From Rikenellaceae bacterium (GTDB lineage: Bacteria > Bacteroidota > Bacteroidia > Bacteroidales > Rikenellaceae), in contig JAUMXM010000008.1 of NCBI GenBank assembly GCA_030529085.1, positions 8,347-55,167 on the forward strand: DNA of 46,821 nt, in the 5' to 3' direction. Within the stretch, counting starts at the first letter, position 1. Each line of letters opens with the position of its first letter. Shown piece by piece: positions 5,141-45,101 of the stretch. Position numbers and translations under genes: made by a program. A model generated the notes under the pieces. It saw nothing but the letters and a program-made list of their open reading frames with translations. It ran no database searches and was not told the origin of the DNA.

Positions 5141-5164
5141 CCTTATAAAGATCGGAAATTTCGG

Positions 5165-6295: not shown

Positions 6296-6298
6296 CGG

Positions 6299-8383: not shown

Positions 8384-8393
8384 GATCGTCGGC

Positions 8394-9545: not shown

Positions 9546-9708
9546 TCAAGTTACAAAACGGAAGGGGAGTTGGAGGTTGTTCCTTGCTCCGACCCTTATT
9601 TTTGCCTCCACCTTGCAACCTCCCTCTCTCTTGTCGCCTGGTGAAACCGTCATTTCGGGCCCCTTGAGTTTTGATGCTTGGCCCGTACACCTGCAGGCGT
9701 TTCATCTT

Positions 9709-9880
9709 TTTGCAAGGCAGGTCTTCTGACTTATTCCCCTTCGATGCGCCTTCCCAGTTTCCCAGTGGCAGAAAGCATCAAACTTTGCGGAACTTACAGC
9801 AGCAGGTACTGTTTCGGATTTCCACCGAATTTCCTTTTCACCCCTCGGCTGTTGACAGCCTTCGGAGAACCTTACGGGGA
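9709..9880 (-). promoter_or_regulatory. Cobalamin (AdoCbl) riboswitch aptamer
   Basis: Read on the minus strand, the conserved core elements appear in the proper order: GGTGGAAATCCGAAACAG leading to CTGCTGCTGTAA (9826-9794), the B12 box GCCACTG (9769-9763), GGGGAATAAGTCAGAAGACC (ending at 9720) and the closing CTGCC. These are the defining conserved blocks of the cobalamin riboswitch. A transcript starting near 9874 would carry the whole aptamer. Binding of a cobalamin coenzyme is expected to reduce expression of the downstream uptake operon. Confidence 0.95.
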
Positions 9881-9911
9881 CAAAGGTAGAGAAGATAATT
9901 TAGAATTCAAA
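9881..9911 (-). promoter_or_regulatory. Promoter of the B12 uptake operon
   Basis: On the minus strand TTTG (9911-9908), 19 bases, then TACCTTTG (9888-9881): a full match to the Bacteroidetes promoter consensus. The predicted start of transcription, some 7 bases on, falls at the 5' edge of the riboswitch. Confidence 0.75.
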
Positions 9912-10167: not shown

Positions 10168-13100
10168 CTATTGGGCTATCGGCTCCAGCTTGAACTCCAC
10201 GTGCTTGATGCGGCGGCGACGCCACGTGTAGGTGGTGTGGATCGTGCCGTCGGCAGCCTCGATCACGGCCGGGTAGGAGTATTGGCTGATGGGGCTGTCC
10301 TCGAGCGTCATCACGTGCTGCCACTTCTCGCCATCCTCCGAGACGGCCACCGAGAGGGGTGTGCGCGGACCCTTGGGGGTGCCGTCGATCGTCTCGAAGT
10401 TGTTGTAAACCAAGACGTGGCGACCATCGCGAAGCGTCACCGCGTCGATACCCGACTGGTTCTGCTCCAGCTCCTTGTCGAGCGTGAGCTTCGACCAGGT
10501 CGTGCCGCGATCCGACGAGTAGGCGATACCCGTCTTGCCGTTACGCGTGCGGCAGAGCATCTTCAGGCGGCCGTCGGCGAGCTTGATGATCGAGGGCTGA
10601 ATCGCCTCGATGGGCAGGGCCTTCGACTCATCGTAGGCCTCCTTGCCGATGTCGGCCTTCGTGGTGACCAGGGGACGGAAGCGGGTCGGCACGTTCAACT
10701 CCGAGTCGAGCGGCGCGGTGCGCTGCCACGTCTTACCCAGGTCGTCGGTATACTCGAAGTGGACACTCCAGCGACCCATCTCGTCGGACGAGGGGCAGAG
10801 GATGCGGCCATCGATCCAGAGGGGCTTGTTCTTGATTGCGCCGAAGATGCCGTCGGGCAGCTGCTCGGGTTTCGACCAGCTCTTGCCGCCATTCTTCGAG
10901 CGAATCAAGTAGCCTTTCCAGTTCGGAACATTGGGGCCCACCTTGTAGAAGAGCCACAGCTCGCCGCCTTTGGTCGGCACCTGGAAGAGCACCGGATTCC
11001 AGCAGGCGTAGCGCAGCGTGTCGTTCTGGATGCCGTCGGCCACCATACGCGGCTCCGACCAGCTGTCCGAGCCCTTCTTCTTGATCTGGGTCCAGATGCA
11101 GACATCGGGGTTGCGCTCGCGCGTGCCACCGAAGTAGGCAGCGATCAGGTCGCCGTTCGGCAGCTCCTCGATCGTCGAGGCGTGGCACTCGATAAAGGGG
11201 GCCTTCTCGTAGAGAAACTCATCGACGAGGATACCCTCGCGATCCTCACCAATCGAGGGGTCGAGGGCAATCGAGAAGTGGTACTTACCCGAGGGAACAC
11301 GCCAGGTACCCATGCCGTTCTCCTCGCCCAGGAAGCGGACACCCTCCTCTTGGATGGCGTTCGGATCGAGGGTCGGAACAACGATCGTGGCGGTCGTGTT
11401 GCAGGGGATCTCCACATCCCACTCCAGACGCATCGGGCTCTTCGTGTAGCTGCTCACGATCGTGCCGTGGAGCGACTTGTAGGAGGTCTCGATGCGCTCG
11501 AGGTTCTGAATCGAGAAGTCGGGAGCCAGGCGAATCTCCTTGTAGCCGGGCTTCGCAGGGTTGATACCGCCCAAATCGCGGTAGAACCAGGGCACCAGGT
11601 CTCCGAGCATCATCACGTGGTTGCCCGAGTTCATCCAGGGGTTGGCCGTATCACCGTTCCAAAGCTCCCAGATGGTCGTGGCACCGCGCTTGGCCATGTA
11701 GCCGAAGCTGGGGTAGCTGTCCTGCGAGGCGAGCGTGTAGGCCACATCGCCGCGACCCATCTTCGTCAGGTAGCGCAGGGTCCAATTCTGACCGCAGACG
11801 CCGCTGCTGATGTGGTTCTTGTTCTCGACAACGAGCTTGTGCAGGATGCTGCGCTCAACGGCCTCGCGGTACTCCTCGGGTACCAGGTCGAAGGCTACGG
11901 CCAAGAGGTTGGCCGTCACGGTGTTGTTGTCGTAGTAGATGCGGTCGGGGTAGTGGGGATGGGGATACTTCGCGGGCGAAGTCCCCTCCTCGACGTGGAG
12001 GAAGGCGCGGTTGAAGGCCTCCTTCGTAGCCTCGGCGCGGGCGGCGTAATCCTCGCGGTCGGCATCTTCGCCGAGCAGCGTGGCAAACTTAACCATCATC
12101 TTCGAGACCATGCTGTAGTAGGCCGTGGCGATGAGGGCCGAGTTGGTCACACGCATCGGATCCTTCGAGTGGATCAAATCGAGCGACTCGGGCGGTACGC
12201 ACCAGTCGCCATACTTCTCCTTCGTGATCAGACCTTCGGCATTCGAGTAGTTCTCGCGCATGTGGTCGAGCCAGAGCTTCATGGCGCCGTAGTTCTTGCG
12301 CAAGGGCTCGAGGTTGCCCGTCTGCTCGTAGAGCATATCGCAGATAATCGGCAGCACCGACTGCCAAACCATGCCGTCCGTGTAGTAGTTCCAGAAGGCA
12401 GGCACCACATCGGGTATGCAACCATCCTCGCGCTGTGCCTCGCGCATATCATCGACCCACTTGGCATACATCGTGCCGCAGTCGAACATAAAGGTCTCGC
12501 CCCAGGTGCCTACGGCGTGGTCGCCGAGCCAGGGCTGGCGCTCGTTGCGCTGCGGACAATCGAGGGGTACACCCTTGTAGTTCGAGGCGATGCCCCACCA
12601 GGCGTTGCGATAGACCGTGTTCATCACCTCGTTCGAGGAGTGGAAATGACCCACCGTCTCGAAGTTGTCGAAGACAAACTCGGCCTCGAAATCCTCGGCC
12701 GTGGGGTTCTTCATACCCGTCACCTCGATGTAGCGGAAGCCGTGGTAGGAGAAGCGGGCGCTCCACTTCTTGTTCTGCTCCGTGCCGTCGGCGATGTAGA
12801 TGTCGCGGCTGCGGGCGTCGCGCAGGTTGCGCGTGAAGAGCGAGTCGCCGCCGTCGGTCAGACGCTCGGCATAGCGCATCATGATCGTGTCGCCCTGCTT
12901 CGTGTCGCGTACGTTGAGCTTCACCCAGCCGGCCATGTTCTGCCCAAAATCGACAATCGTGCGACCCTCGTAGTGGGTCACCGACTTCACGGGCAGGCGC
13001 TTCATGATCTTCATGTTGGGCGAGGTTGCACCGCGCAGCGTACCGTAGGGGATACCCACGCGCTGTGCCTTGAGCCACGTCGAATCGTCGTAGCCCACTT

Positions 13101-14028
13101 CGGTCCAGGCGCCCAGCTCCTTGTTGGCGTCGTAGATCTCGCCGTCATACTCGTTGTTCGAGCGGATCGGGCCTTGTGCCGTGAGGCGCCAGCTCGGATC
13201 CGAGGCGATGCGCTCGCGCGTGCCGTCCTCATACTCGACAATCAAGTTCAGGCGCATCTTCGGGTAGCCGAAGTTGGGAATCTTGTAGGGCTTGTAGTTC
13301 TGACGCATCGTGTACCAGCGGCCGTTACCCAGCACAACGCCGATGGCGTTCTGGCTCTTGAGCTGCTCCGTGACGTCGAACGAGTTGTAGGTGATCGTGC
13401 GGCGGTAGTCGCTCGGCACGGGGGCCAGGACCTGATCGCCGATGATCTGACCGTTGATGAAGAGCTCGTACATGCCCAGACCCGCGATGTGGATCGTGGC
13501 ACGCTTGATGGGCTTCTCGGCCAGGGCAAACTCGTGGCGGATGTAGCGCGAGCTGAGCTCGCTGATGGTTACCTCCTTATCCCAAGGGAAGGCGGCCTCC
13601 CAGCCGATCCAACGGCCACCCCAGGCACTCTCGCCCAGCAGACCCATGCCCCACTCCGAACTCTCGCTCCACGCCGAGGCGCCTTGCGTCGTGTAGACCT
13701 TCACGCGCCAATAGCAGCGCTGGTTGCTCGTGAGCTTCTTACCGGCGTAGGGTACCCAGATCGATTGATCGGAGGCTACGATGCCCGAATCCCACAGGTC
13801 GGCCTTGCCCTCCTCGAGCAGCGAGGGGTCGGAGGCCACCAGCAGGTGGTAGGCGGTCTGCATAACACCCTTCTCGTCGGAGGTGATGATCCAGCTCAAG
13901 CGGGGCTGGGCACGCTCGATGGAGAGGGGCTTGGTGAGTTGTTCCACTTCGAGCTGACCCACGCGCACCCCTGCCATGGTGAGCAGCGGTGCGACGAGGG
14001 CAACACAAAGTATGAGCAATCTTCTCAT
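10168..14028 (-). CDS. Two-module enzyme: GH78 alpha-L-rhamnosidase fused to a sialidase-like (BNR) propeller
   Basis: 1286-residue exported protein (signal peptide about 1-19, LLTMAG). Residues to about 915 form a full GH78: N-terminal beta-sandwiches, then the (alpha/alpha)6 barrel with CPQRNERQPWLGD (Glu496, Asp503 at the positions of conserved GH78 acids) and TTIWELWNGD later. From about 930 to the end a second catalytic-type module follows, a BNR_2/sialidase-like propeller with Asp-box turns SKNGGKSW, TDDLGKTW and SSDRGTTW, plus RERNPD, CRTRNG and SYPAVIEAADG. No classical RIP motif is seen. Free-standing versions of both modules are common; the fusion is the noteworthy part. In this RG-II locus the likely targets are the terminal rhamnose of side chain C and the Kdo beneath it; this is inference. 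Last gene of the arm, 35 bases after the GH140 gene. Confidence 0.85.
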   Translation of the reverse strand: MRRLLILCVALVAPLLTMAGVRVGQLEVEQLTKPLSIERAQPRLSWIITSDEKGVMQTAYHLLVASDPSLLEEGKADLWDSGIVASDQSIWVPYAGKKLTSNQRCYWRVKVYTTQGASAWSESSEWGMGLLGESAWGGRWIGWEAAFPWDKEVTISELSSRYIRHEFALAEKPIKRATIHIAGLGMYELFINGQIIGDQVLAPVPSDYRRTITYNSFDVTEQLKSQNAIGVVLGNGRWYTMRQNYKPYKIPNFGYPKMRLNLIVEYEDGTRERIASDPSWRLTAQGPIRSNNEYDGEIYDANKELGAWTEVGYDDSTWLKAQRVGIPYGTLRGATSPNMKIMKRLPVKSVTHYEGRTIVDFGQNMAGWVKLNVRDTKQGDTIMMRYAERLTDGGDSLFTRNLRDARSRDIYIADGTEQNKKWSARFSYHGFRYIEVTGMKNPTAEDFEAEFVFDNFETVGHFHSSNEVMNTVYRNAWWGIASNYKGVPLDCPQRNERQPWLGDHAVGTWGETFMFDCGTMYAKWVDDMREAQREDGCIPDVVPAFWNYYTDGMVWQSVLPIICDMLYEQTGNLEPLRKNYGAMKLWLDHMRENYSNAEGLITKEKYGDWCVPPESLDLIHSKDPMRVTNSALIATAYYSMVSKMMVKFATLLGEDADREDYAARAEATKEAFNRAFLHVEEGTSPAKYPHPHYPDRIYYDNNTVTANLLAVAFDLVPEEYREAVERSILHKLVVENKNHISSGVCGQNWTLRYLTKMGRGDVAYTLASQDSYPSFGYMAKRGATTIWELWNGDTANPWMNSGNHVMMLGDLVPWFYRDLGGINPAKPGYKEIRLAPDFSIQNLERIETSYKSLHGTIVSSYTKSPMRLEWDVEIPCNTTATIVVPTLDPNAIQEEGVRFLGEENGMGTWRVPSGKYHFSIALDPSIGEDREGILVDEFLYEKAPFIECHASTIEELPNGDLIAAYFGGTRERNPDVCIWTQIKKKGSDSWSEPRMVADGIQNDTLRYACWNPVLFQVPTKGGELWLFYKVGPNVPNWKGYLIRSKNGGKSWSKPEQLPDGIFGAIKNKPLWIDGRILCPSSDEMGRWSVHFEYTDDLGKTWQRTAPLDSELNVPTRFRPLVTTKADIGKEAYDESKALPIEAIQPSIIKLADGRLKMLCRTRNGKTGIAYSSDRGTTWSKLTLDKELEQNQSGIDAVTLRDGRHVLVYNNFETIDGTPKGPRTPLSVAVSEDGEKWQHVMTLEDSPISQYSYPAVIEAADGTIHTTYTWRRRRIKHVEFKLEPIAQ

Positions 14029-14063: not shown

Positions 14064-15497
14064 TTAGAGCGAAAGCTGCTCCTTGGTGATGTAGCTCTTC
14101 GCTGCATCTACGGCTACAAGTACGTGGTCGTTGGCGGGACCTACCTCGCCCTCGGCCTGGAACTCGTGGATGCCGTTCTCATACTCACCGACATACTTCA
14201 GCGAGCCGTCAACGGGCGAGTACCACCATACGTTCTTCTTCTCGCCGCTGATCTTCGCCAGGTCGATCGACATCGGCTTGTTGGTGTAGGTGTATACCAG
14301 CAGGTAGTCCTCACCACGCGTTGCGATGGCGCGGTCGTAGCGGAAGCCGTGCTCGCCGGCGATCACCGTCTGGTCGCCTACGCGCTCAAAGAAGGGGAAG
14401 GCGCAGATGAGCTTCTTGACATACTGCATCTGGTTGAAACCGGGATCCTCGAGACCCTCTTTCCAACTCTTGATGGCACCATAACCGCCCGGCTTCTCGC
14501 CACCGGGGTGCATCTGCATGATCGAGTTGTGGCCATAGGTGTGACCAAAGGCACCGGCAAATACCGACCAGTAGGCGTAGCGGCGTACGTCGTACGACTT
14601 CCACCAGGGCTCGGCGGGGTCGTGCAGACCCTGCGGAATCTCCTCATACGAAGGTTCACCGTCGATGATGGGCTTCATCGGCTCGAGGGCGAAGGCCTCC
14701 TCTACATAGCGCCAGTTATCCTCGGCAACCGAAGCCTGGGCCGTGTCGTCGCCATCACCGCGCGTCTGATCGTAGCGGCGGTGACCCGACTGGAACATGT
14801 TGAAGTCGAGCCACTCGGCGTTGTGGAACCAACGTACCGACGAGGTGCGACCGAAGGGGTGGAAGGTCATCAGGTGGTTCTTGTCGATCGACTTGATGGT
14901 GCGCGCCAGCGTCTCCCACGAAGCGGTCTCCACATCACCCTTGATGTCACCACCGATGAACCAGATGATGTTGGGCGTATCCTTGTAGCGGTTGGCCAGG
15001 AACTCGCCGTAGGCCTGTGCCTGCTCGACGTTCATCAGACCCTTCTTCACCAGGCCACCCCATACGCAGACCATACCGATGTAGATGCCGCGCTTGCCGG
15101 CCTCATCGATGATGTAGTCCATGTGCTGCCAGTAGCCGTTCTCGCCCTCAGCCTCGATGACCGAGAAGTCATAGCCGGCCGGGTGCGAAAGCTTGCCGAA
15201 GACATTCGTGGCGGGTACACCGTTTACGGTCTGCACCTGTACGACGTTGTAGCCGGCCTTCTGGCAGGCATCCAGGTAGTAGATGGCGTTCTCGCGATCC
15301 AGACGCTCGGGCAGCAACCAACCCGTCTCGCCGAGCCAGAAGAAGGGCTCGCCATTCTCGTGCTGGAGGTAGCGACCATTCTCCGATACGACGAGCTTAC
15401 CGTTGTCCCAGGGGAGGTTGTTCTCCTGAACTGCCTCCTTCGGAGCGCAGCTTACGGCCAGCACTGCGAGTGCCAGCATTGCAAAAAGTTTTTTCAT
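14064..15497 (-). CDS. GH140-type apiosidase (DUF4038 glycosidase), lipoprotein
   Basis: 477-residue lipoprotein (lipobox AVSC, Cys17) with a TIM barrel of the DUF4038 family and a small C-terminal beta-sandwich (putative collagen-binding-like domain, ending DHVLVAVDAAKSYI). The barrel opens with GEPFFWLGETGWLLPERLDR. Candidate catalytic acids are Asp184 in FIGGDIKGD and Glu281 in DGEPSYE; the spacing of 97 residues equals that of the pair I recall for the characterised B. thetaiotaomicron apiosidase BT1012. GH140 enzymes release apiose-linked side chains from the RG-II homogalacturonan backbone. The start at 15497 gives the lipoprotein signal; an in-frame upstream extension would run into the preceding gene and lacks one. 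Confidence 0.85.
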   Translation of the reverse strand: MKKLFAMLALAVLAVSCAPKEAVQENNLPWDNGKLVVSENGRYLQHENGEPFFWLGETGWLLPERLDRENAIYYLDACQKAGYNVVQVQTVNGVPATNVFGKLSHPAGYDFSVIEAEGENGYWQHMDYIIDEAGKRGIYIGMVCVWGGLVKKGLMNVEQAQAYGEFLANRYKDTPNIIWFIGGDIKGDVETASWETLARTIKSIDKNHLMTFHPFGRTSSVRWFHNAEWLDFNMFQSGHRRYDQTRGDGDDTAQASVAEDNWRYVEEAFALEPMKPIIDGEPSYEEIPQGLHDPAEPWWKSYDVRRYAYWSVFAGAFGHTYGHNSIMQMHPGGEKPGGYGAIKSWKEGLEDPGFNQMQYVKKLICAFPFFERVGDQTVIAGEHGFRYDRAIATRGEDYLLVYTYTNKPMSIDLAKISGEKKNVWWYSPVDGSLKYVGEYENGIHEFQAEGEVGPANDHVLVAVDAAKSYITKEQLSL

Positions 15498-15552
15498 AGT
15501 GTTTTTTGAGTTATAATTAGTTGTTGAATCTAAGTTTCGGGGTTGTGTGTGG

Positions 15553-18090
15553 CTACTTTTTGGCAGCCTCGGCTGCCGCCTTTTTCTCGGCGTTGCGCTT
15601 GTCGACATAGGCCTTGAAGAGGGCCTTCCAGTTGCGGCCGTTGGCGTTGAGGTACTGCTCGCATTGGGTCTTATAGACCTCGAACACCTGCGAGATGCCC
15701 TTCATGCGGCGGCACTCGAGCGCCTCCTCGCGAGCCGTCTCGAGCAACTTGCGCATCGCGGCAGCCTCCTTATCCGTCAGGTCGGGAACGATGGCGTAGT
15801 AGCCCTTCATCGTGAAGTCGACCTTGCCGATCGTGTAGCCGTCCCAGAGCTGGATGATCTGCTCGTTGGTCAGCTTGAGCTTCTTGAGCCCCTTGAGGAG
15901 CTCCTTGCGCACCGAGGCGGGAATCTGCTGGTCGGCTATCATCTCGCGCTCCACCTCGTTGAGCTTGCGACCCGTCTTGGTATCGATCTCGGGGATGGTG
16001 GTGTAGGGGTGGGCGTTGTGCCACTCCACAACGGCCGTGCGGTGAGCCTTGACCAGCTCCGTAACGGCGGCGGCACGCTCCGCGTCGAGCTTCAGCGGCT
16101 CGACAATCGCAGCGCTGCGGTCGATATACTTCTTGTCGTCGGCAGCCGCCTTCTTCTCGGCGTTGCGCTTATCGACATAGGCCTTGAAGAGTCCGCGCCA
16201 GGGGCGACCCGTATCGGTGAAGTGCTGCTCGCACTTGGTTTTGTGGATCTCGAAGACCTGCGAAATGGCCTTCATGCTCTTGCAGTCGATCGCCTCGCTA
16301 CGCGCCTGCTTCAGGTGACCCAGCAGCACCTTCTCGTCCTCGGCCGTCATGTCGGGAACAATGGCGTGGTAGCCCTGCATCGTGAAGGCCACCTTGCCTA
16401 CCGTATATTCGTCGAAGACCTGCTCGATCTGCTCCTCGGTGAGGACACTCTTCAGGCTCTTCATCAGGCGCTCGCGCTCCTTGATGGGGATCATGCGGTC
16501 GGCCATCATCTCGCGCTCGACCTTCGAGCGCTTCTTGCCCGTAGCCTTATCCACCTCGGGGATGGTGGTGTAGGGGTTGGCGTTGTGCCAATCGCGCACG
16601 GCGCGGCGGTGGTTGTAGACAGCCGTCGTAGCAACGCCGATGGCGCGCTCGTCAGTAAGGTTCAGCTTGGCGATGATCTGCTCGGCCTTGCGGTAGACCG
16701 ACTCATCGGCTGCAGCGGCGCGTACGCGGTCCTTACCGAAGTAGGGGGCGAGCTTATTGACGCTGCGGATTGCGCTCTCGGGCATCAGCTCACCCTTCTT
16801 GCCGAAGGAGAGGAGCGTAGCGGTCGGTACGACGGTCACCTTGCTCTCGTCGACCTTCGAGCTATCCATGCCGAGGCTCTTGGCGAAGAAGGCGTAGGCC
16901 GCCTCGCGCTTGCTCACGCCGTAGTCGTGACCCTCAGTCGCGAAGTGGGCATTCGAGAGCTGGTCGGCGGCATCATACATGGCATAGACCTTCTCGAGGT
17001 AGGGGTACTCGACCGTCGGCACGCTCTTCGTCCAATCCTTGCCGTCGGAGATTACACAGAGGGGCTTCGGGGCGAAGATGGCGGCCATCTCGGCGTTGCA
17101 GGTGCCGTTGGCGGCCGTTGTGATGGGCATGCCGCTCTCGCAGGGGCAACCGCCATCAAAGTAGGAGGAGAGGCTCACTACGGGGCAGAGGGCCGTGTAG
17201 CGGTCGTCGATGACGCTCAATACAACCGACTGCTGACCACCACCCGAGGCACCCGTGACACCGATGCGGCTCTTATCGGCATCTGCGCGCGTGAGGATGT
17301 AGTCCAGGATCGAGATACCGTTCATCATCTGAATCGTGGCGGCATAGGGGGTGCGGTGAGCTGCGCTCGAAACCTGGTGCTCCGACTCGGCGTAGCCAAA
17401 GAGGTCGTAATCGACCGCAATGGCACCCATGCGGGCAAAGGTGGCCATGCGCAGCTGCTGATCCTTGCGGTAGCGACCCTCGTGGAAGTGGCCACAGGGC
17501 GAGATAATCACGGGGTAGGTACCCTTCTTGGCGGGGGCGTAGATCGAACCGCAGACATAGAGGCCGGGGAGGGTCTCCAGGGCGAAGTTCTGCACCGTGT
17601 AGCCGTCGTATTTGCGAATCTTCGAGAGGATGGGGGCCGCCTCGACGCGCTTTTCGAGCAGGGGATCGATCTCCAGCTTTTCGCGCACCTCGCGGCGAAT
17701 CACCTCGGCGCGCTCCTCGAAGACCTTACGGTCGGTGTAGAGCGAGAGGAGGTAGGCGGTCATCTTCTCACCGTCGGGAATCGTGCGACGCATGAACTCG
17801 AAGGGCTGAATCTTGTAGCTCTTCTCGCCCGTCTGGAGGTAGCGCAGGTCGAAAAGACCCAGGATACCCCACAGCGTCTCGTCAATCGAGTAGGGACGGA
17901 TGCGGAAGTCGGCATAGGGAACTTCGAGCCCCTCGATCTTGGCGTCGATCGAAAGTTTCACGTCGAAGTGGTCGGCCACCTCCTCCAACACCTCGCCTAA
18001 GGGACGGGTGAATTGGTTTTCGTAGCGGTTCTGTGCCTCGGCGGTCATCAGGCCACCCAGCAGGAACACAAGCAGTAGTAGTTTTTTCAT
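15553..18090 (-). CDS. Alpha/beta-hydrolase esterase with STN-like N-domain and tandem DUF3826 domains
   Basis: 845-residue exported protein (signal 1-19). Residues about 28-95 resemble an STN/secretin-TonB short domain (PLGEVLEEVADHFDVKLS ... YKIQP). Residues about 150-440 are an alpha/beta hydrolase of the acetyl-xylan-esterase-like/CE19-like type: nucleophile Ser282 in GASGGG, candidate Asp349 in SDGKDW, His388 in EGHDYG. Two DUF3826 copies follow (about 455-645 and 648-845), each with a WHNA-PYTTIPE block, a VEREM-AD block, a GY-AIVPD block and a YVDKRNAEKKAA tail. B. thetaiotaomicron BT1017, a pectin methylesterase of an RG-II locus, has a hydrolase domain of this kind, so removal of methyl or acetyl groups from RG-II is likely. 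The role of DUF3826 is not known. Paralogue of the next gene upstream. Confidence 0.8.
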   Translation of the reverse strand: MKKLLLLVFLLGGLMTAEAQNRYENQFTRPLGEVLEEVADHFDVKLSIDAKIEGLEVPYADFRIRPYSIDETLWGILGLFDLRYLQTGEKSYKIQPFEFMRRTIPDGEKMTAYLLSLYTDRKVFEERAEVIRREVREKLEIDPLLEKRVEAAPILSKIRKYDGYTVQNFALETLPGLYVCGSIYAPAKKGTYPVIISPCGHFHEGRYRKDQQLRMATFARMGAIAVDYDLFGYAESEHQVSSAAHRTPYAATIQMMNGISILDYILTRADADKSRIGVTGASGGGQQSVVLSVIDDRYTALCPVVSLSSYFDGGCPCESGMPITTAANGTCNAEMAAIFAPKPLCVISDGKDWTKSVPTVEYPYLEKVYAMYDAADQLSNAHFATEGHDYGVSKREAAYAFFAKSLGMDSSKVDESKVTVVPTATLLSFGKKGELMPESAIRSVNKLAPYFGKDRVRAAAADESVYRKAEQIIAKLNLTDERAIGVATTAVYNHRRAVRDWHNANPYTTIPEVDKATGKKRSKVEREMMADRMIPIKERERLMKSLKSVLTEEQIEQVFDEYTVGKVAFTMQGYHAIVPDMTAEDEKVLLGHLKQARSEAIDCKSMKAISQVFEIHKTKCEQHFTDTGRPWRGLFKAYVDKRNAEKKAAADDKKYIDRSAAIVEPLKLDAERAAAVTELVKAHRTAVVEWHNAHPYTTIPEIDTKTGRKLNEVEREMIADQQIPASVRKELLKGLKKLKLTNEQIIQLWDGYTIGKVDFTMKGYYAIVPDLTDKEAAAMRKLLETAREEALECRRMKGISQVFEVYKTQCEQYLNANGRNWKALFKAYVDKRNAEKKAAAEAAKK
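15556..16713 (-). repeat. Internal duplication encoding the two DUF3826 copies
   Basis: The two halves are clearly alignable at DNA level in their conserved blocks: the stretch around 15590-15620 and that around 16158-16188 differ at only a few bases and encode the same YVDKRNAEKKAAA sequence. Elsewhere the copies are diverged to roughly half identity at protein level, so the duplication is not recent, or the end blocks have been homogenised. Confidence 0.75.
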
Positions 18091-22268: not shown

Positions 22269-25200
22269 TTAGAGTACGTTTTCACACACAATGCGACCCA
22301 ATTCGGGCTGGTTGGCCACCTTCTTGCCATCGACCAGGATGGTCAGACCCTTGCCCTGGTGGTACTTGTCGCCGTGGCGGTCCCAAAGGATGGTGATGAT
22401 GTGGTTGTGGTAGCGCACATTGTCCAGGCAGAACCAATCCCACTCGGCAGCGGGCACCAGCGGATTGATCTCGAGCGTGCGGTCGGCGCGCGGACGCAGA
22501 CCCATCAGGCCCGTAATCATCAGGTCGTTGAAGGTCGAGTGGTTGTAGTAGCGGGCGCGCTCCTGGTCACCCTTGAGCCAGTAGCCCGTCACCTCGTCGA
22601 GGTACTCGCCGATGTAGGGGCGACCGCGGTGGTAGCACGACTCAACGTAGAGCTCCATCTGGCGGAAGTAGTCCTCCTTGTTGACAATCGGAGTCGAATC
22701 GGTATTGAGGTAGTTGGCCAGTGCCGTCAGGGTCTGTGCCGAGGCGAAGGGCCAGATGGCACCGTCCCACTCACAGCGACCCACGCCGCGCGTGCGGAAC
22801 TCGGGGTGGCGACGCTCTGCGGTCGTCAGACCATAGGGCGAGAGGAAACCGCCCTCGTCGTTGATCTGCAGCCAAGCCTTCTCGTGCTGCTTCTCGGGCA
22901 GGTTGAAGTACCAGGGGATGTAACCGATTGCCTCGCGGGCGCAGCAGAGCGTGTCGGCACGACGCGTCTCGAAGAAGTCGCGCTCCTCGTTCCAGAGCTT
23001 GCCATAGACCAGATCCTTGATCTCCTCGGCCTTCTTCTCATACATTGCGGCATCCGACTCGTTGCCTACCAGGCGGGCCATCTCGACCATCGCCTTGGCG
23101 TTACCATACATGTAGCTGTTGATCGAGGGGCGCGCAAACTGCTTCTTGCGGCCGCCGCTGATCGACTCCTCCATGCCGTCCTTGACATCCTCCTGCCAAT
23201 AGAGACCATCGGGCAGGCGGTGGGTATCCTCCCAGTAGGCGTACTCGGCCTTCAGGTCGGCGTAGAGATCCTTCACGTAGGCTTCGTCCATGTTCACCAA
23301 GTAGCGGTGGTAGACCGACCAAGGGTTCCACGAGCTGAACTTGTTCATCTTGGCCATTACCTTGCCCTCGTTGCCGCGATACCAGGTGTGGATAATCTGA
23401 TTCAGGTAGTCGTCGTTGTGCAACCAGCGGCTCTCATGGATGTGGTGACCGATGGCGCAGGCGATCAGGTTGTACTTATCCGAGTAGGAGCGCTGCACGA
23501 GGAACTCGGTCATGCCGTAGCCAACGGGGGTCTCCTTGATGTGCTTGCGCAGCGACCACCAACGGAAGTAGAACATCTCCTCGAAGTTGTGTTGCGGGCA
23601 CTCGAAGAGGGGGATGTTCTTCTCCATCCAGGCCGAAGACTCGCTGTTGGGAATTGCCTGGGCGATATTCTCATCCTCCGAGGCGTTGAAAAGCTCGGCG
23701 TAGTGGGCAAAGTCGGCATAATCCAGGACGGCAGCCGTGCTGTTTACGTCGGCCGACGAGGTGCGGAAGTTACCGATGCGGAAGATTGCCTCCTCATCCA
23801 TGCCGTTGCAGTTCGGCAGGTCGTCGTAGCGGTCGGCCCAGGTATCCACGGTGGGGTGGTGGCGACGCTCGCCGGTGCGGAACACCACGCGCTCGATCGA
23901 CTCCACGGGGGCGTAGAGCATGCGGGTCGTCGTCTTTTTGCCGTCGATGTAGACCACCGAGTTGCGGTTCTCGCAGGTGATGACCACCTTCACGCGGTAG
24001 CTCTTGCCCGGCTCGTACATCGTCACGCGGCCGTAGCGGGCACCGCCCTTCGAGCGCATCTCGCCCTGATCGGTCAGGTCGATGCGGGCGCAAGCCGTAC
24101 CCTCCGAGTCGATGAACTCGATCTCGAGGTGACCCTTGTCGTTCTGCTCTGCCTGGAGGTCGAACTCGACGGTCAGCTCGCGCGAGGCGGGAATCTTGCG
24201 CTCCACCTTGGCATCGAAGAAGGGATCCTTATCTTTGAGCGTGAGCCACTTGCCCTCGAGCGTCACGGGAGCCCATACGCCCGAGTAGAGGTTCCACATC
24301 GTCAGGTCGCTCAGTTTCTCGAACTTTGCGAAATCCTCGTCGGCGTGGGCCGTGGCGTGCTGCTGCACGGGCACCGGTACGCGACTTACCCACATGTCCT
24401 CCTTGTTTACGCTGTAGGTAAGCCACAGATCGCCATCTTCGGGAGTGCCGTTACCCTCTTGAATACCACGCACATACTGCGGGCCGTAGGATTTATACTG
24501 ACCGGCGTAGCGCATCGGGGGCACCTCGCCATAGATCAGGTTTAAGGTCGTGTACTCCAGACCATCCTTCGAGAGCGAGATGGCGAGCGGCCAGCGGAAC
24601 TCCGAGGGGTTGTAAACGGTGGCATAGGTGCCGTCCGAAAGGCGCTGACCCCAAATCTTGGCGTTGCTGTTCACGAAACCCTTGGCGCGGGCAATCGGCT
24701 CGGCCCAGGTGTTGCCGCCGTCGCTCGAAATCGAGGTCAGGGCGTGCTTCCAGAGCGCAACTTTGCGGCCATCCTCGAGCGTGTAGTAGCAGAAGGCCTT
24801 GTAGGGCTTGTTGAGCGGAATCAGCTCCTCGTCGCGGTCGGCCTCCTCGACCCAACCCATGCGCTGCAGGGGGCTGGCCAGGATCTCCTCGCAAGCCTCG
24901 CGGAAGCCCTTATCCTTCGAACGGGTGTAGTAGGGATAGGCGGCATTCTTCTCGTTGAAGGCGTGGTTGAAGTAGATGAAATAGATGGGGCCAAACGAGC
25001 CATCCTCGTAGATCTCGCGCACCACGCGACCGATGCCGTTACCGTCGTTCGGGTCATCCTTCGGGAAGAGCGAGATGCCGTAGTTGCCGATAGCCAGCAG
25101 GCGATCGCCCTTCGAGACGTAGAAGCCTACGCGTTGGTGCATGATGGCATCCATATCCTTGGCTACCACTGTGCCGTCCTTTGTGAAGCCGTCGGGAATG

Positions 25201-25583
25201 CGGTAGGTGGGGAAGAGGATCTCGGGGTCGCTCCAGGTGTAACCGTCGGCCGAGCTCTGGAGCATGGTCATCGAGGGGGGTACATGCTCATCGACCGGGT
25301 CGCAGAGGTAGTGCATATAGAACTTGCCGCGCCAGTAGGCCAGGAACGACTGGTGGTTGTAGGTCCAGCCGTTGCCGTTGGTGGCGTAGGGCAGCTTGCG
25401 GTTGGCGCGCATCGTCTGGATGTTGTGCACACCCACCACGGGCGAAAGACCGCCGTCGTGCAGGTTGGGGTTCGAGAGCTCGCTGCCCGTGTAATGGACG
25501 CGGTCGCTCTCCTGGGCTGCAACCGAGAGCGAGACGACAAGAGCTGCCGCCACGAGGGTCGCTGTTTTGAGGAATTTGGTCAT
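22269..25583 (-). CDS. Two-module GH143-GH142-type enzyme for RG-II side chain D (BT1020-like)
   Basis: 1104-residue exported protein (signal 1-23, SLSVAAQ). Residues about 25-430 form a sialidase-like propeller (SADGYTWSDPEIL, SSDGGNTWAEPI, SLSKDGLEYTTL), followed by a beta-sandwich (about 440-620). From about 640 there is an (alpha/alpha)6 barrel of the MGH1-like glycosidase group (WWSLRKHIKE, WNPWSVYHRYLVNMDEAY, RPSINSYMYGNAKAM, CEWDGAIWPFASAQTL). This order, length and style match BT1020, where the GH143 module hydrolyses the Dha linkage and the GH142 module removes beta-L-arabinofuranose, so one protein dismantles side chain D. Assignment is by recall of that family, not alignment. First gene of the minus arm. 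Confidence 0.8.
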   Translation of the reverse strand: MTKFLKTATLVAAALVVSLSVAAQESDRVHYTGSELSNPNLHDGGLSPVVGVHNIQTMRANRKLPYATNGNGWTYNHQSFLAYWRGKFYMHYLCDPVDEHVPPSMTMLQSSADGYTWSDPEILFPTYRIPDGFTKDGTVVAKDMDAIMHQRVGFYVSKGDRLLAIGNYGISLFPKDDPNDGNGIGRVVREIYEDGSFGPIYFIYFNHAFNEKNAAYPYYTRSKDKGFREACEEILASPLQRMGWVEEADRDEELIPLNKPYKAFCYYTLEDGRKVALWKHALTSISSDGGNTWAEPIARAKGFVNSNAKIWGQRLSDGTYATVYNPSEFRWPLAISLSKDGLEYTTLNLIYGEVPPMRYAGQYKSYGPQYVRGIQEGNGTPEDGDLWLTYSVNKEDMWVSRVPVPVQQHATAHADEDFAKFEKLSDLTMWNLYSGVWAPVTLEGKWLTLKDKDPFFDAKVERKIPASRELTVEFDLQAEQNDKGHLEIEFIDSEGTACARIDLTDQGEMRSKGGARYGRVTMYEPGKSYRVKVVITCENRNSVVYIDGKKTTTRMLYAPVESIERVVFRTGERRHHPTVDTWADRYDDLPNCNGMDEEAIFRIGNFRTSSADVNSTAAVLDYADFAHYAELFNASEDENIAQAIPNSESSAWMEKNIPLFECPQHNFEEMFYFRWWSLRKHIKETPVGYGMTEFLVQRSYSDKYNLIACAIGHHIHESRWLHNDDYLNQIIHTWYRGNEGKVMAKMNKFSSWNPWSVYHRYLVNMDEAYVKDLYADLKAEYAYWEDTHRLPDGLYWQEDVKDGMEESISGGRKKQFARPSINSYMYGNAKAMVEMARLVGNESDAAMYEKKAEEIKDLVYGKLWNEERDFFETRRADTLCCAREAIGYIPWYFNLPEKQHEKAWLQINDEGGFLSPYGLTTAERRHPEFRTRGVGRCEWDGAIWPFASAQTLTALANYLNTDSTPIVNKEDYFRQMELYVESCYHRGRPYIGEYLDEVTGYWLKGDQERARYYNHSTFNDLMITGLMGLRPRADRTLEINPLVPAAEWDWFCLDNVRYHNHIITILWDRHGDKYHQGKGLTILVDGKKVANQPELGRIVCENVL

Positions 25584-28164: not shown

Positions 28165-29520
28165 ATGGCAAAAGAAAAAAACAGCCTGAAAAGTACGCTG
28201 GCTGTATCTTTGACAAACTACCTCGATGCAGGTGCCATTGTTGCCGGTGCCAGCGGTCTCTCGCTTTGGCAGTCCTATCTTGGTCTTTCGGAGGGTCACC
28301 TCGGTTGGCTCAATGCGATCTCGGCTAACTGCCTTGGTGCCGCTATCGGTGCCATTATCGGCGGTTTCCTGGCCGATAAGTATGGTCGCAAGGCGATCTA
28401 CACCTACAACATGCTGGTCTATATGGTCGGCGTGGCACTCATCATGTGCTCGGTGAACTTCGCGATGTTGCTCTTCGGTTTCCTGGTGACGGGTATCTCG
28501 GTCGGCGTGGGTGTTCCCGCCTCGTGGACCTACATTTCGGAGAACTCGGAGGTGGGCAACCGTGGTCGTAACATCGGTATCTCGCAGATGGCCTGGGGTA
28601 TCGGCCCGCTCGTAATTCTGTTGCTGGGTACGATTCTGGCTCCCCCGACGGGTGGCGCAGCCGGTGTGGCCTATCCGCTGGTGGAGACGATCGCCTCGTG
28701 GTTTGGTGTCGAGGGTGCTGCTATGCACGTCTTCTCGAGTCGTCTGGTCTTCCTCTCGCTCTTTGTGGTGGCCTTCATTGCCTGGAACCTGCAGCGTCGC
28801 CTCGACGAGTCGGCCGAGTGGCAGGCAGCCAAAGAGGAGGCTTCGAAGGCTCCTACGACGGGTGGTGTCTTTGCATCGTTCGGTAAGCTCTTTACCAACA
28901 AGACCAACATCATCACGATGCTCTTCCTGGCCGGTATGTACCTGACCTGGAACCTTGTATGCTCGGTGATGGGCTTCTTCCAGCCCCACATCTACGAGAC
29001 GGCCGGCGGCCTCTCGAACGAGTATGCCAATATGCTTGCTGCGGGTCAGTGGGTGATTATCATCATCACCACCTTCATCTTCTCGCTCATCGTCGATAAG
29101 GTGAATCAGCGTTGGCTCTACGCCCTGGGTGTGAGCTTCGGTGTCTTGGCCTGGGTGATTGTCGTGGTGATCGGCATCGGCAGTATGAGCGGTCTGCTCT
29201 TCTTTACGCTGCTGTGGGCCCTGCAGGCCGGTATTTCGGTGCAGTCGTTCTACGCCTTGTGGGCTTCGGAGCTCTTCCCCGCGAAGTATCGCGCCGCCGC
29301 ACAGGGTGTGATGTTCTTCATCGTGCGCGGCCTCTCGGCTGTTTGGGGCCTGGTCTTCGTCTATATCTACGGCGAGAACGGCGAGGGCTTCACACTGGCC
29401 GGTACGATTATGATGTGCTTCTTCATTATTTCGCTCCTCATCGGTACGATTTGGGCCCCCGTGACCCGTGGTAAGAGTCTGGAGCAGATTACCCGTGAAC
29501 GTTATGGCGATGACTTCTAA
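28165..29520 (+). CDS. MFS sugar transporter
   Basis: 451-residue inner-membrane carrier of the major facilitator superfamily with twelve predicted helices. The loop-2/3 motif is GGFLADKYGRKAIY (about 67-80), and the middle cytoplasmic loop is ESAEWQAAKEEASKA. The RLDES-A region after helix 6 and ASELFPAKYRAAAQG after helix 10 are typical of sugar-porter-like members. Substrate cannot be read from sequence; its neighbours suggest a sugar or small oligosaccharide released from RG-II, such as a rhamnoside. Its 3' end overlaps the next gene (cytoplasmic GH78), which suggests translational coupling and shared substrate. Confidence 0.85.
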   Translation: MAKEKNSLKSTLAVSLTNYLDAGAIVAGASGLSLWQSYLGLSEGHLGWLNAISANCLGAAIGAIIGGFLADKYGRKAIYTYNMLVYMVGVALIMCSVNFAMLLFGFLVTGISVGVGVPASWTYISENSEVGNRGRNIGISQMAWGIGPLVILLLGTILAPPTGGAAGVAYPLVETIASWFGVEGAAMHVFSSRLVFLSLFVVAFIAWNLQRRLDESAEWQAAKEEASKAPTTGGVFASFGKLFTNKTNIITMLFLAGMYLTWNLVCSVMGFFQPHIYETAGGLSNEYANMLAAGQWVIIIITTFIFSLIVDKVNQRWLYALGVSFGVLAWVIVVVIGIGSMSGLLFFTLLWALQAGISVQSFYALWASELFPAKYRAAAQGVMFFIVRGLSAVWGLVFVYIYGENGEGFTLAGTIMMCFFIISLLIGTIWAPVTRGKSLEQITRERYGDDF

Positions 29521-31642
29521 AGCAACTTGGATTTGGTACCCGGGCGACTATGAGATTTGGCTCGGAAACAAGATGAATAACCGCCGCACGGAGCGCGGTG
29601 CCTTCTTCCCGCCCTTCTGGAAGACCGACAGCCACTATGTGACCGTCGAGTTCTCGACCGTGGTCGAGCTGGCCGAGGAGGAGGAGATTACGATTGCCGC
29701 CGAGGGTATCTTCAACATCAAACTCGATGGCAAGCTCCAGTTCGGTATGCCTGCGACCTTCCTCCTTCCGGCAGGTCGCCACAACCTCAATATCAAGGTC
29801 TGGAACCAGATGACACCCCCGGCACTCTTTGTCGAGGGTAAGACGATCAAGAGCTCCTCGGCCTGGCGTGTGACGTTCGAGGACCTGGAGTGGATCGACG
29901 AGAGCGGCAAGGCGAGCGACACCTCGGCTACGGTCTATCAGGCTGCCGGCTGCTGGAACTTCGGTCGTGAGGAGCGACCCTCGGCCTACAAACTCTGTCG
30001 CGAGGCGCTGCCCGCCGTGGCTTGCAGCGCGCAACAGGAGGGCAAGCTCTACGACTTTGGCCGCGAGACCTTCGGTTACCTCGTGTTGGAGGGCGCGAAG
30101 GGCAACGGCGAGGTGAAGATCTTCTACGGCGAGAGCCCCGAGGAGGCGATGGATAAGGCCTTCTGCGAGACCCTCGACCGCATTGCCGTCAACGAGGCCG
30201 GCTTCACGGACCTGGCTACGGGTGCCGTTGTGGCGGCTTCGGAGCGCTATGTGCTCGACAACAGCAAGGCCTTCCGCTATGTCTATGTGGAGTGCGAGGG
30301 CGTTACGCTCGAGGGGGTTTCGATGGAGTATGAGTATGCCCCCGTCAGCTATCGCGGCTCGTTCCGCTCGAACGACGAGGAGCTGAATCGCATCTGGGAG
30401 ATTGGTGCCTATACGATGCACCTCACCACGCGCGAGTTCTTCATCGACGGCATCAAGCGCGACCGTTGGGTCTGGAGCGGCGATGCTGTGCAGAGCTACC
30501 TGATGAACTACTACCTCTTCTTCGATTCGGAGTGCGTGAAGCGCACGACGTGGCTGCTGCGCGGCAAGGATCCCGTGACGGCCCACACGAATACGATCAT
30601 GGACTACACCTTCTATTGGTTCATCGGTATCTACGACTACTATATGTACACGGGCGATCGCCTCTTTGTTGAGCAGATCTACCCCCGTATGCAGACGATG
30701 ATGGCCTTCGTTGAGGGTCGTGCTAACGAGCGCGGCATGGTCGAGGGTCAGACGGGCGACTGGGTCTTTGTCGATTGGGCCGACGGCTACCTCGACAAGA
30801 AGGGCGAGTTGGCCATCGAGCAGGTGTTGCTCTGCAAGAGCCTCGAGACGATGGCACTCTGCGCCGAACTGGTGGGCAACGAGGCCGACCGTGCGAAGTA
30901 TGCCGAACGTGCCGCCACGCTGCGTGCCCTGCTGCTGCCCACCTTCTGGAACGAGACGAAGCAGGCGCTGGTCCACAACTGTGTCGAGGGCAAGCAGTCG
31001 GAGGCGGTGACTCGCTATGCCAATATGTTTGCCACCTTCTTCGGCTACCTCAGCCCCGCCCAGCAGCAACAGATCAAACACTCGGTGCTGCTCAACGACG
31101 AGGTGCTGAAGATTACGACCCCCTACATGCGCTTCTACGAGCTCGAGGCACTCTGCGTGCTGGGTGAGCAGGAGGCCGTGATGGGCGAGATGAAGGATTA
31201 CTGGGGCGGTATGCTCCGCGAGGGTGCCACCTCCTTCTGGGAGAAGTACAACCCCTCGGAGAGCGGTACGCAGCACCTGGCCATGTATGGTCGCCCCTAC
31301 GGCAAGAGCCTCTGCCACGCCTGGGGCGCCTCGCCGATCTACCTCTTGGGTCGCTACTACCTCGGCGTGAAGCCCACCAAGCCGGGCTATGCCGAGTTTG
31401 AGATTCGTCCCACGCTGGGTGGCCTGGAGTGGATGGAGGGTACGATTCCCACCCCCGACGGCGAGATTCGCGTGAAGATGAACAGCGAGCAGATCGAGGT
31501 CGAGGCTACGGCCGGCTGCGGTTGGCTCTATCTGGCAACAGGGCAGACCCCGAGTGCCTCTGTGGGCACGTTCGAGTCGGTGGGCGAGGGCGAGTATCGT
31601 CTGCGCATCGAGGCCGGCAAGGCTGTGACAATTTGCTACTAA
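29504..31642 (+). CDS. Cytoplasmic GH78 alpha-L-rhamnosidase
   Basis: About 712 residues, with no signal peptide or lipobox: the protein begins MAMTSKATWIWYPGDYE. A shortened GH78: a beta-sandwich (to about 290) and an (alpha/alpha)6 barrel with FIDGIKRDRWVWSGDAVQ (Asp320, Asp327 counted from 29504) and TSFWEKYNPSESGTQH later, ending in the C-terminal beta-domain. It overlaps the MFS gene by 17 bases (or 11 if the ATG at 29510 is used). In-frame codons further upstream lie deeper in the MFS gene and are less likely starts. I infer that it hydrolyses a rhamnose-containing product imported by the neighbouring carrier. The acid motif RDRWVWSGD differs from that of the other two GH78 proteins here. 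Confidence 0.87.
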   Translation: MAMTSKATWIWYPGDYEIWLGNKMNNRRTERGAFFPPFWKTDSHYVTVEFSTVVELAEEEEITIAAEGIFNIKLDGKLQFGMPATFLLPAGRHNLNIKVWNQMTPPALFVEGKTIKSSSAWRVTFEDLEWIDESGKASDTSATVYQAAGCWNFGREERPSAYKLCREALPAVACSAQQEGKLYDFGRETFGYLVLEGAKGNGEVKIFYGESPEEAMDKAFCETLDRIAVNEAGFTDLATGAVVAASERYVLDNSKAFRYVYVECEGVTLEGVSMEYEYAPVSYRGSFRSNDEELNRIWEIGAYTMHLTTREFFIDGIKRDRWVWSGDAVQSYLMNYYLFFDSECVKRTTWLLRGKDPVTAHTNTIMDYTFYWFIGIYDYYMYTGDRLFVEQIYPRMQTMMAFVEGRANERGMVEGQTGDWVFVDWADGYLDKKGELAIEQVLLCKSLETMALCAELVGNEADRAKYAERAATLRALLLPTFWNETKQALVHNCVEGKQSEAVTRYANMFATFFGYLSPAQQQQIKHSVLLNDEVLKITTPYMRFYELEALCVLGEQEAVMGEMKDYWGGMLREGATSFWEKYNPSESGTQHLAMYGRPYGKSLCHAWGASPIYLLGRYYLGVKPTKPGYAEFEIRPTLGGLEWMEGTIPTPDGEIRVKMNSEQIEVEATAGCGWLYLATGQTPSASVGTFESVGEGEYRLRIEAGKAVTICY

Positions 31643-42016: not shown

Positions 42017-45000
42017 ATGAGAATTTTTACAAATGTGATTGAGAAGTGTCGCCTGGCACAGGTGATGCTTGTCTTCGCTGCTCTGGTGTGCGTGAACACG
42101 GTTTACGCTCAGCAGGTGATCAAGGGTAATATCGCTTCGTCGAATGGCGAGGCCATTATCGGTGCAAGCGTTATTGTAGAGGGTACGACGACGGGTACGA
42201 CGACCGACCTGGACGGTAACTTCCAGCTGGAGGCTCCCGCCAAGTCGTCGATCGTTGTTTCGTACCTGGGCTACCAGACGCAGACGCTGGCTGCAACGAC
42301 CGCCTTCATGAAGGTCGTTATGGTCGAGGATAACGCACTGCTCGACGAGGTTGTTGTCGTAGGTTACGGTACGATGAAGCGTAGCGATTTGACCGGTTCG
42401 ACGACCCAGGTTAAGAGCGAGGCTATCACCTCGGTGATGGCTGCCAACCCCCTCGAGGCACTGCAGGGTAAGTCGACCGGTGTGGCTGTCTTCACGAACA
42501 ACCAGCCGGGTGAGGCTCCCACGCTCCGCATTCGTGGCTCGGCTTCGATCAACGCCGGTACCGACCCGCTCTACGTAGTAGACGGTTTCCCCCTCACGGA
42601 TGCCAACATGAACGACTTTAACCCCGCCGACATCGAGTCGATGGAGATCCTCAAGGATGCTTCGGCTACGGCTATCTACGGTTCGCGTGGTGCCAACGGT
42701 GTTGTGATGATCACCACGAAGAAGGGTTCGGAGGGTCGCCACAATATCAGCTTCCATGCCAACATGGGTATCCAGATGCGTTCGCGCCTGCTCGAGACCA
42801 TCACGGGTGACGAGTTCATCGAGTACATCAACACCGCTACGGTAAACCAGGGTGGCTCGAAGCCCTTCCCCAACGGTTACAACGGTAAGTTCTACGATTG
42901 GCAGAAGGAGATTATCCAGAAGTCGGCCATCTCGCAGGACTATGGTGTATCGCTCGACGGTATGGCCAAGGATACGAAGTATATGTTCTCGGCCGGTTAC
43001 TACAACCAGGACGGTCTGATCGAGTCGCAGGGCTACGAGAAGTTCTCGGTACACAGCAACCTCGAGCACGACTTCAACAAGTACTTCACGATCGGTGCCA
43101 ACATGCAGTTCACGACCGCTACGCAGCGCATCCAGACTGACCCGATCACGAACGATATCTTCCGCTATGGTTGGCCGACCGACCACCTCATCAACGAGGA
43201 TGGCTCGTTCAACATCGTACAGCACGGTGAGGCCTTCAACCCCCTGGCCGACATCGCCGCTACGAACGACAAGGTGAAGAGCGCTCGCTTTGTGGGTAAC
43301 TTCTTCGCTCAGGTGAACTTCACCGACCACTTCAACTACCGTCTGAACATCGGTTACGACACGAAGACGGCTAACCGCTACCAGTTCCTTAGCTCGCAGA
43401 CGGCTAAGGGTATCCAGGCCGGTTCGACGACCAGCAAGGGTATGCACAACTGGAATCGCCAGGAGTCGCGCCTGATGGATAACATCTTCACCTACTCGAA
43501 CCAGTGGGGTGACCACCGTATGTCGTTGACGGGTGTTTACTCGTGGCAAGACTACAAGTTCAACACCTCGCGCATCGAGGGTAACTTCTCGAACGACGCG
43601 CTGGGTGCTTGGGACTTCGCAGGTGCTGACCAGGCTTCGCTGAAGGCCACGTCGGATATCTACAGCAACCGCCTGATTTCGTGGACGGCTCGCGGTACCT
43701 ATGCTTTCAAAGATAAGTACCTCTTGACCGCTACGGTTCGTTTCGACGGTTCGTCGCGCTTCGGTGCCGATTCGAAGTGGGGTACCTTCCCCTCGGTAGG
43801 TTTGGCATGGCGTGCTTCGGAGGAGAACTTCCTGAAGGATAGCAACGTGATCACCAACCTCAAGATCCGTGGTAGCTACGGTGTGACGGGTAACCAGGAG
43901 ATCGGTAACTACCAGTCGCTGGCTCGTCTGGCTACGAAAGATGGCGACTCGAACTACTCGGATGGTGTAAATAACGTCCAGGGCTTCTATGAGTCGGTAG
44001 GTAACTCGAAGCTCCAGTGGGAGAAGACCACGCAGGTTGACCTCGGTTTCGACCTGACGATGTGGGATCTGCTCCACGTAAACTTCGACTACTACAACCG
44101 TCAGACTTCGGACCTGCTCTACACGGTTCCCATCCCCTCGACCTCGGGTTACTCGTCGGTACTGAGCAACGTGGGTGAGGTGAGCAACCAGGGTATCGAG
44201 TTGGCTGTTAGCGCTGATGTATATCGCTCGAAGGATTGGACGATCACCGTAGGCGGTAACTTCACCTACAACACCAACGAGATCAAGAAGCTCTACGACG
44301 GTGCAGACCGCATCACGGTTTACGACGGTTCGGGTACGACGGGTCTCTCGCGTGTGCTGGAGGTTGGTCAGCCTGTAAACGGTGTGTTCGGTTTCCGCTC
44401 GCTGGGTATCATCAAGAACGAGCAGCAGCTGGCCGACTATATCGAGGCTATGCCGAAGCTGGCCGGTACGGTTGGCGTAGGTTCGGAGATGTATGCCGAC
44501 GTTGATGGCGACGGTGGTCTTTCGATCAACGACGCAGAGTGCATCGGTAGCGTTGAGCCTTCGTTCTTCTACGGTTTCAACCTGGGCGTTCAGTGGAAGC
44601 AGCTCAAGCTTAACATCTATGGTCAGGGTGCTTGGGACTACGCTTCGATGGCCGGTTCGGAGGACTACTACAACAACGGTTCGAAGTGGGCTATCGCTTA
44701 CCAGAACACGGGTAACTACGCACTTTGGGCTAACAACACGGTTCGCAACCAGATTGGTCTTCCGACCAAGGATGGCTACCGCGATATGTGGAGCCCCTCG
44801 AACCCCAACGGTAAGGCTCCTATGGCCGGTGCCAAGGGTATCCTCCTCTCGGATCGCACCAACGCTGATTGGGCTTACTTCATCCTGAAGAACATTCAGC
44901 TTTCGTACGACTTCTCGGATCTGATCAACACGAAGTACATCAAGGGCTTGGTATTCAACGTAAACTTCCAGAACTTCGGTACGTGGGCTAACCACATCGG

Positions 45001-45076: not shown

Positions 45077-45101
45077 TCCGTAATACACAGAGAAATATTC
45101 T

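Follow-up and report, generated by a model that had tools for sequence, protein, structure and literature searches.

A GH78 and sialidase-like propeller fusion that may dismantle side chain C of rhamnogalacturonan II in a Rikenellaceae bacterium

Few plant glycans are as complex as rhamnogalacturonan II (RG-II). Side chain C, which is α2,3-linked, is described as ending in α1,5-rhamnose (Rha) and side chain D in β1,5-arabinofuranose (Araf) (PMC12282258, where the two ulosonic acids, 3-deoxy-D-manno-octulosonic acid [Kdo] and 3-deoxy-D-lyxo-heptulosaric acid [Dha], are named in the other order). Bacteroides thetaiotaomicron breaks all RG-II linkages but one (PMC12282258), i.e., 21 of 22, the exception lying in 2-O-Me-Xyl-Fuc (PMC7939467). 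A "Kdo hydrolase (GH33)" is named among RG-II enzymes (PMC11214529), and a Kdo hydrolase is listed under glycoside hydrolase family GH33 (PMC9120202). GH33 and GH78 occur in a Bacteroides xylanisolvens locus taken as homologous to a B. thetaiotaomicron RG-II locus, and the text does not state that they form one protein (PMC4769552); this GH33 label of 2016 could also mean the propeller of the BT1020 type. Here, we present an analysis of a 46,821-nucleotide stretch of the genome of a Rikenellaceae bacterium (the window) and, within it, of a gene at positions 10168 to 14028 that joins a GH78 α-L-rhamnosidase module to a sialidase-like propeller. A GH78-propeller fusion is said to have been described already by Ndeh et al. 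in 2017, and the work of Zhao and Raetz from 2010 reportedly concerns another Kdo hydrolase. In a literature search with subscription journals mostly outside its coverage, we found neither BT1013 in an RG-II paper nor a GH78-GH33 or GH33-GH78 pairing, and passages of PMC12168206, PMC8702856, PMC10671698, PMC8002723, PMC3342949, and PMC12342981 contain nothing on such a fusion. Because B. thetaiotaomicron cleaves nearly all RG-II linkages and an RG-II Kdo hydrolase of GH33 has been published, neither the function nor the architecture is very likely to be new; the fusion is real and conserved, and it is probably a chain C enzyme that has already been characterized.

We conclude, with a probability of about 0.72, that the fusion is the chain C enzyme of an RG-II locus and the orthologue of the protein at the BT1013 position, with the GH78 module taking the terminal Rha and the propeller then taking Kdo. 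According to this model, the protein would be exported out of the cytoplasm, the GH78 module would remove the terminal α-1,5-L-rhamnose, and the propeller would then hydrolyze the exposed α-2,3-linked Kdo from the galacturonan backbone. The protein and its modules are as follows (coordinates are those of the window).

10168..14028 (-), GH78/BNR_2 fusion protein, 1286 amino acids (aa), ATG start
11341..13956 (-), complete GH78 module (aa 25-896; Pfam)
10237..11154 (-), BNR_2 sialidase-like propeller (Pfam match aa 959-1264)

The fusion of a complete GH78 module with a sialidase-like propeller is confirmed. Behind an N-terminal hydrophobic stretch that, judged by eye, resembles a signal peptide, Pfam finds Ig_Rha78A_N (aa 25-131), Bac_rhamnosid_N (aa 172-342), Bac_rhamnosid (aa 354-452), Bac_rhamnosid6H (aa 458-818; E 6.9e-103), Bac_rhamnosid_C (aa 821-896), and BNR_2 (PF13088; aa 959-1264; E 3.5e-82). 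A sequence-only reading of this DNA had proposed these two modules, with the propeller at residues 930 to 1286; the architecture agrees with the Pfam matches, and the limits are sensible. At a cutoff of E 1e-5, the solved relatives of the whole protein (6i60, 3w5m, 6gsz, and 2okx) cover the GH78 part only. With the GH78 α-L-rhamnosidases 6i60 and 3w5m, the fusion protein shares all five Pfam domains, giving the N-terminal, concanavalin-like, six-hairpin, and C-terminal set, as well as both catalytic Glu residues; in the alignment, E496 and E788 correspond to residues 636 and 895 of 3w5m, the general acid and base in Rha78A of Streptomyces avermitilis. In contrast to these enzymes, it carries the propeller as a C-terminal extra. 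The two modules share one frame in 49 of the 49 loci examined (L158-L206, i.e., the loci kept from the searches of GH143 genomes and of the Bacteroides faecis genus sample described below, found by their propeller, with L169 cut by a contig end) and, therefore, the fusion is no accident of the frame.

The surroundings of the fusion gene are those of an RG-II locus and contain the following features.

14064..15608 (-), GH140 apiosidase-type gene directly adjoining the fusion (Pfam; a 63% relative lies beside the B. faecis fusion)
15553..18090 (-), BT1017-type pectin methylesterase, DUF3826 plus alpha/beta hydrolase (Pfam; BT1017 function from PMC7939467)
19509..22265 (-), second GH78, BT1019 type (Pfam; 59% to B. 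faecis)
22269..25583 (-), BT1020-type GH143-GH142 two-module enzyme for side chain D, BT_1020-like propeller plus GH142-type module (Pfam)
29468..31642 (+), divergent GH78-clan protein of 724 aa, the third of this clan in the locus, assigned to the BT1001 type (69% to a correspondingly placed B. faecis protein of 736 aa)
42017..46700 (+), SusC/SusD pair of the locus

From this gene set, together with a GH127-type enzyme, a GH2 β-galactosidase-type gene, and a GH2-malectin gene, we conclude that the window holds an RG-II utilization locus; thus, the RG-II setting and the two-module chain D enzyme of the sequence-only reading both hold. A relative of the BT1019-type GH78 with at least 44% identity lies near the GH143 gene in 67 of 80 loci (the best 80 of 558 relatives).

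The closest described counterpart is the fusion of B. faecis MAJ27 (L208:5317-9186), which is 54% identical to the window fusion over 1308 aligned positions, has the same modules in the same order, each related along its length to that of the window, and has a GH140 neighbor in the same kind of locus. The gene order in MAJ27 is GH140, the fusion, three non-overlapping open reading frames of 261 to 508 aa (one of which may be antisense), the BT1017-type esterase, one gene, the BT1019-type GH78, and the BT1020 type; the window fusion likewise sits with GH140, the BT1017-type esterase, and the BT1019 and BT1020 types. BT1012 is the apiosidase and BT1017 the methylesterase (PMC7939467), and counting genes from these two in B. 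faecis places the fusion at BT1013. The window fusion appears to be orthologous to the protein at the BT1013 position, a number derived from the gene count in B. faecis. The two loci differ in strand: in the window the fusion, GH140, the methylesterase, and the second GH78 all lie on one strand, whereas in B. faecis GH140 and the fusion run opposite to the methylesterase and the GH78. Moreover, many copies of the fusion in Bacteroides and Phocaeicola have an insert early in the propeller. Two other assignments were ruled out. BT1019, listed as a GH78 (PMC6828813), corresponds to the other GH78 of the window, and BT1001, reported to cut Rha-Api (PMC7939467), corresponds to the separate 724-aa gene.

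The fusion is widespread. From a scan for GH143 we took the 80 best of 558 relatives as named loci and searched 49 of their genomes for the propeller. All 49 of these genomes, chosen for GH143, have it, and in 48 the open frame that contains it measures 1255 to 1427 aa; the sole exception is G203, in which the propeller frame is broken (genomes and loci are given by our own G and L numbers). Among 200 genomes sampled from the family, 13 have a propeller match at E 1e-20, and in nine of the 13, the window's genome included, it lies within a frame of 1285 to 1473 aa. In the sample of the B. faecis genus, 34 of 99 genomes have a match, which in G294 is a standalone gene. B. cellulosilyticus (G216) and B. 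stercorirosoris (G222) carry second fused copies on other contigs that are 51 to 53% identical to the window propeller. The presence across the GH143 genomes and the B. faecis genus sample rules out that the fusion is special to the genus of the window. Hence, the special standing given to the fusion by the sequence-only reading is not borne out, and the caution of that reading that a similar fusion may exist in the B. thetaiotaomicron locus was right: the arrangement is the usual one in the searched Bacteroides-type RG-II loci and falls, by gene count, at the BT1013 position. In a propeller tree of 93 of 101 loci plus the window (duplicate sequences, sequences interrupted by stops, and matches below 250 aa were left out), nearly all fusions form one group, with G484, which is fused in another order, and G312 outside; the bootstrap is unsettled, two labels are in error (L045 is no fusion, whereas L169 is one truncated by its contig end), and we do not rely on this tree.

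High-scoring propellers co-occur with GH143. In a sample of 395 genomes from the phylum, the propeller model matches 39 genomes at E 1e-40, and in most of these phylum-wide matches the module is encoded by a separate gene, ∼335 to 410 aa in length. Nineteen genomes, that of the window being one of them, match at E 4.6e-128 or better and the next matches follow at 6e-122; the cut was set after this gap in scores was seen. Strong GH143 matches (E below 1e-90) are present in 21 of the 395 genomes, and all 19 genomes with a high-scoring propeller are among these 21 (Fisher p 1.8e-30, uncorrected for relatedness); the two GH143 genomes without one are G524 and G365. In 18 of the 19, propeller and GH143 are at most 18 kb apart on one contig; in G603 they are 176 kb apart. 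At the family level, a full GH143 is found in 10 of the 11 genomes with a close propeller, out of 12 GH143 genomes in all (weak GH143 fragments in G134 were left out of the count), with G187, G172, and G055 as exceptions. Because of this co-occurrence, a tie of the propeller to an ulosonic acid side chain is supported.

We compared 20 stretches in and beside 15 propeller loci with the window proteins. Where the propeller stands alone in GH143 genomes outside the window's order, a fusion-type GH78 lies upstream on the same strand in six of eight loci (G500, G658, G540, G414, G367, and G504), in some cases far enough away for a short gene to fit in the gap; G658, G540, and G504 belong to one genus, so that these cases are not all independent. 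That the two modules are separate neighbors in these loci supports a stepwise attack on side chain C. Near the weaker-scoring propellers of G583, G496, G353, G711, G456, and G524, none of 16 other window proteins was found, save a SusC/SusD-like pair at G496. The GH143-GH142 enzyme of the BT1020 type is built on the same plan as the GH78-propeller fusion, in that a propeller for an ulosonic acid is joined to an enzyme for its capping sugar; the module order, however, is reversed, and the propeller family (PF24067) and the partner are different. GH143 and GH142 are separate genes in G658, G540, and G504, and also in G484, where the sialidase-like propeller is fused. Both ulosonic acid pairs thus exist as separate genes in some genomes and as fusions in others, and the "parallel logic" that the sequence-only reading saw in the two fusions is backed by their gene neighbors.

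The propeller resembles a sialidase by its sequence and is not a regular one. Its nearest solved relatives in the PDB are sialidases (E 1.1e-13 for Sialidase B), and profile similarity gives E 2.7e-13 to NanB (2jkb) and 4.4e-13 to NanC (4yw1); because sialidases are enzymes of ulosonic acids, we favor Kdo as the substrate. Six residues do not vary across the 40 aligned sequences: H949, which lies just N-terminal of the Pfam match, E971, Q1144, R1160, R1222, and Y1252. In the alignment with NanB, Q1144 coincides with the catalytic Glu, R1160 with one of the triad arginines, and Y1252 with the nucleophile. R1222 is the likely counterpart of the third triad Arg, five positions off in the alignment; E971 falls on the slot of the acid Asp by a very weak alignment segment of 2.4 bits; and H949 falls in the slot of the first triad Arg by motif spacing only. 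By sequence alignment, then, neither the arginine triad of GH33 nor its Tyr nucleophile with a Glu partner is found complete, as His occupies the first slot of the former and Gln the Glu slot of the latter. The propeller shares with NanB and NanC the Tyr nucleophile slot and at least one Arg, and it differs from them in having His for Arg, Glu for Asp, and Gln for Glu. The sequence-only reading had made an arginine triad with an acid pocket the point on which its proposal would stand or fall, and the sequence alignment speaks in part against it: R1160 stands and R1222 likely does, E971 may occupy the acid slot, and the first Arg gives way to an invariant His.

Several observations weigh against the proposed chain C function. 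The sialidase pocket is not intact. The same six residues are present in four aligned relatives outside RG-II loci and, therefore, are no marker of Kdo and do not separate RG-II members. The locus encodes three GH78-clan proteins, so that Rha-Kdo is not a forced substrate for the GH78 of the fusion. Neither G603 nor G620 has a fusion-type GH78 within the 20 kb examined around the standalone propeller. G172 has cleanly lost the propeller and kept GH143, its GH78 module (L074:12526-15303) ending in a stop at the expected start of the propeller. The GH78/propeller pair is present in G008, which is not among the GH143 genomes, the two family draws apparently being the same 200. Finally, G020 and G005 (the latter 82% complete) have the propeller, and a BT1019-type GH78 elsewhere, with no fusion-type GH78 among the strong GH78 matches. 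Because of G020, G005, G008, and G172, we leave open which GH78 uncaps the Kdo.

These genomes bear most directly on an alternative that we regard as unlikely, namely that the propeller is a Kdo hydrolase, while the GH78 of the fusion removes another RG-II rhamnose and the BT1019-type GH78 uncaps the Kdo. G020 and G005 fit this alternative well, as their standalone propeller lies next to a standalone GH143 and their strong GH78 matches include BT1019-type (52% and 47%) and BT1001-type proteins, none being fusion-type; G603 and G620 fit as well. However, where the GH78 and the propeller are both seen, they are fused (all 49 loci, found by their propeller) or neighbors (six of eight), and the pair is kept even where GH143 is missing, in G008; this suggests that both act on a common substrate. 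More doubtful still is that the propeller hydrolyzes another RG-II sugar or is a noncatalytic binding module keeping chain C in place for the GH78. The changes from Glu to Gln and from Asp to Glu in the presumed catalytic slots, as well as the clean loss in G172 with GH143 kept, would agree with it; against it, all 40 sequences retain the Tyr of the nucleophile slot, two Arg, and an acid without change, the module is its own gene in most phylum-wide matches, and some B. thetaiotaomicron enzyme must cleave the Kdo linkage because the sole uncut linkage is another one. That the propeller is a genuine sialidase directed at host glycans is very improbable, as the broken arginine triad, the strict link with a plant pectin locus, and the pectin enzymes all around outweigh that its best PDB matches are sialidases.

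We therefore retain a chain C enzyme that would take Rha and then Kdo, and we see the altered sialidase pocket as the more interesting open point of this protein. If catalytic, it would be a variant of sialidase chemistry worth a structure. Tentatively, and with the odds clearly against it, we raise the possibility that the BNR_2 (PF13088) proteins could be a family of their own of Kdo-type hydrolases with a changed catalytic center rather than sialidases; if so, many sialidase annotations in Bacteroidota would mark ulosonic acids such as Kdo, since standalone relatives keep the same invariant residues. The fusion itself is useful to know and no new invention, as many related gut bacteria encode it too. 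Both RG-II ulosonic acid side chains are met by matched enzyme pairs, separate in some Bacteroidota and fused in many Bacteroidales, which makes the Kdo and Dha steps easy to spot in genomes and provides a marker for RG-II users. Such propellers should not be read as sialidases attacking host mucus.

Some further observations concern the standalone propellers. In G008, the propeller gene lies directly before the fusion-type GH78 (45%; L045:9151-13258), and the genome has 18 GH78-clan matches and no GH143 that we found. In G020 and G005 (L042 and L043), the side-by-side propeller and GH143 are accompanied by GH140 and GH43-like genes, and neither GH142 nor a fusion-type GH78 was seen in the stretches around them. 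A dihydrodipicolinate synthase (DHDPS)-family gene and a sodium symporter beside the propeller of G020 looked like Kdo uptake and breakdown; a Kdo aldolase was rejected, as the DHDPS-family protein finds its closest PDB relative in 4xky, the dihydrodipicolinate synthase of B. thetaiotaomicron (E 3.9e-123, versus ∼1e-29 for N-acetylneuraminate lyases). The window's own genome has a standalone propeller paralogue (L046:173-1354; G000:C4) that is 36% identical and keeps the invariant residues; it adjoins an S49 peptidase gene and a DNA polymerase I gene, and in sister genomes its relatives lie between open reading frames of similar length.

Within the window, a 462-aa protein at 18118-19506 (-) has no Pfam family above the cutoff and holds the position of BT1018 in B. 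thetaiotaomicron; the corresponding region of sister genomes matches the N-terminal half of the BT1017-type esterase (45 to 54%), and this protein may be a tandem esterase paralogue. On the other side of the fusion, a cobalamin riboswitch (9699-9889 (-); Rfam RF00174; 98.3 bits) precedes genes at 4136-9488 for a DUF5074 protein, a TonB receptor, a periplasmic binding protein, and a FecCD permease, which most likely form an operon for the uptake of vitamin B12, located immediately behind the RG-II genes.

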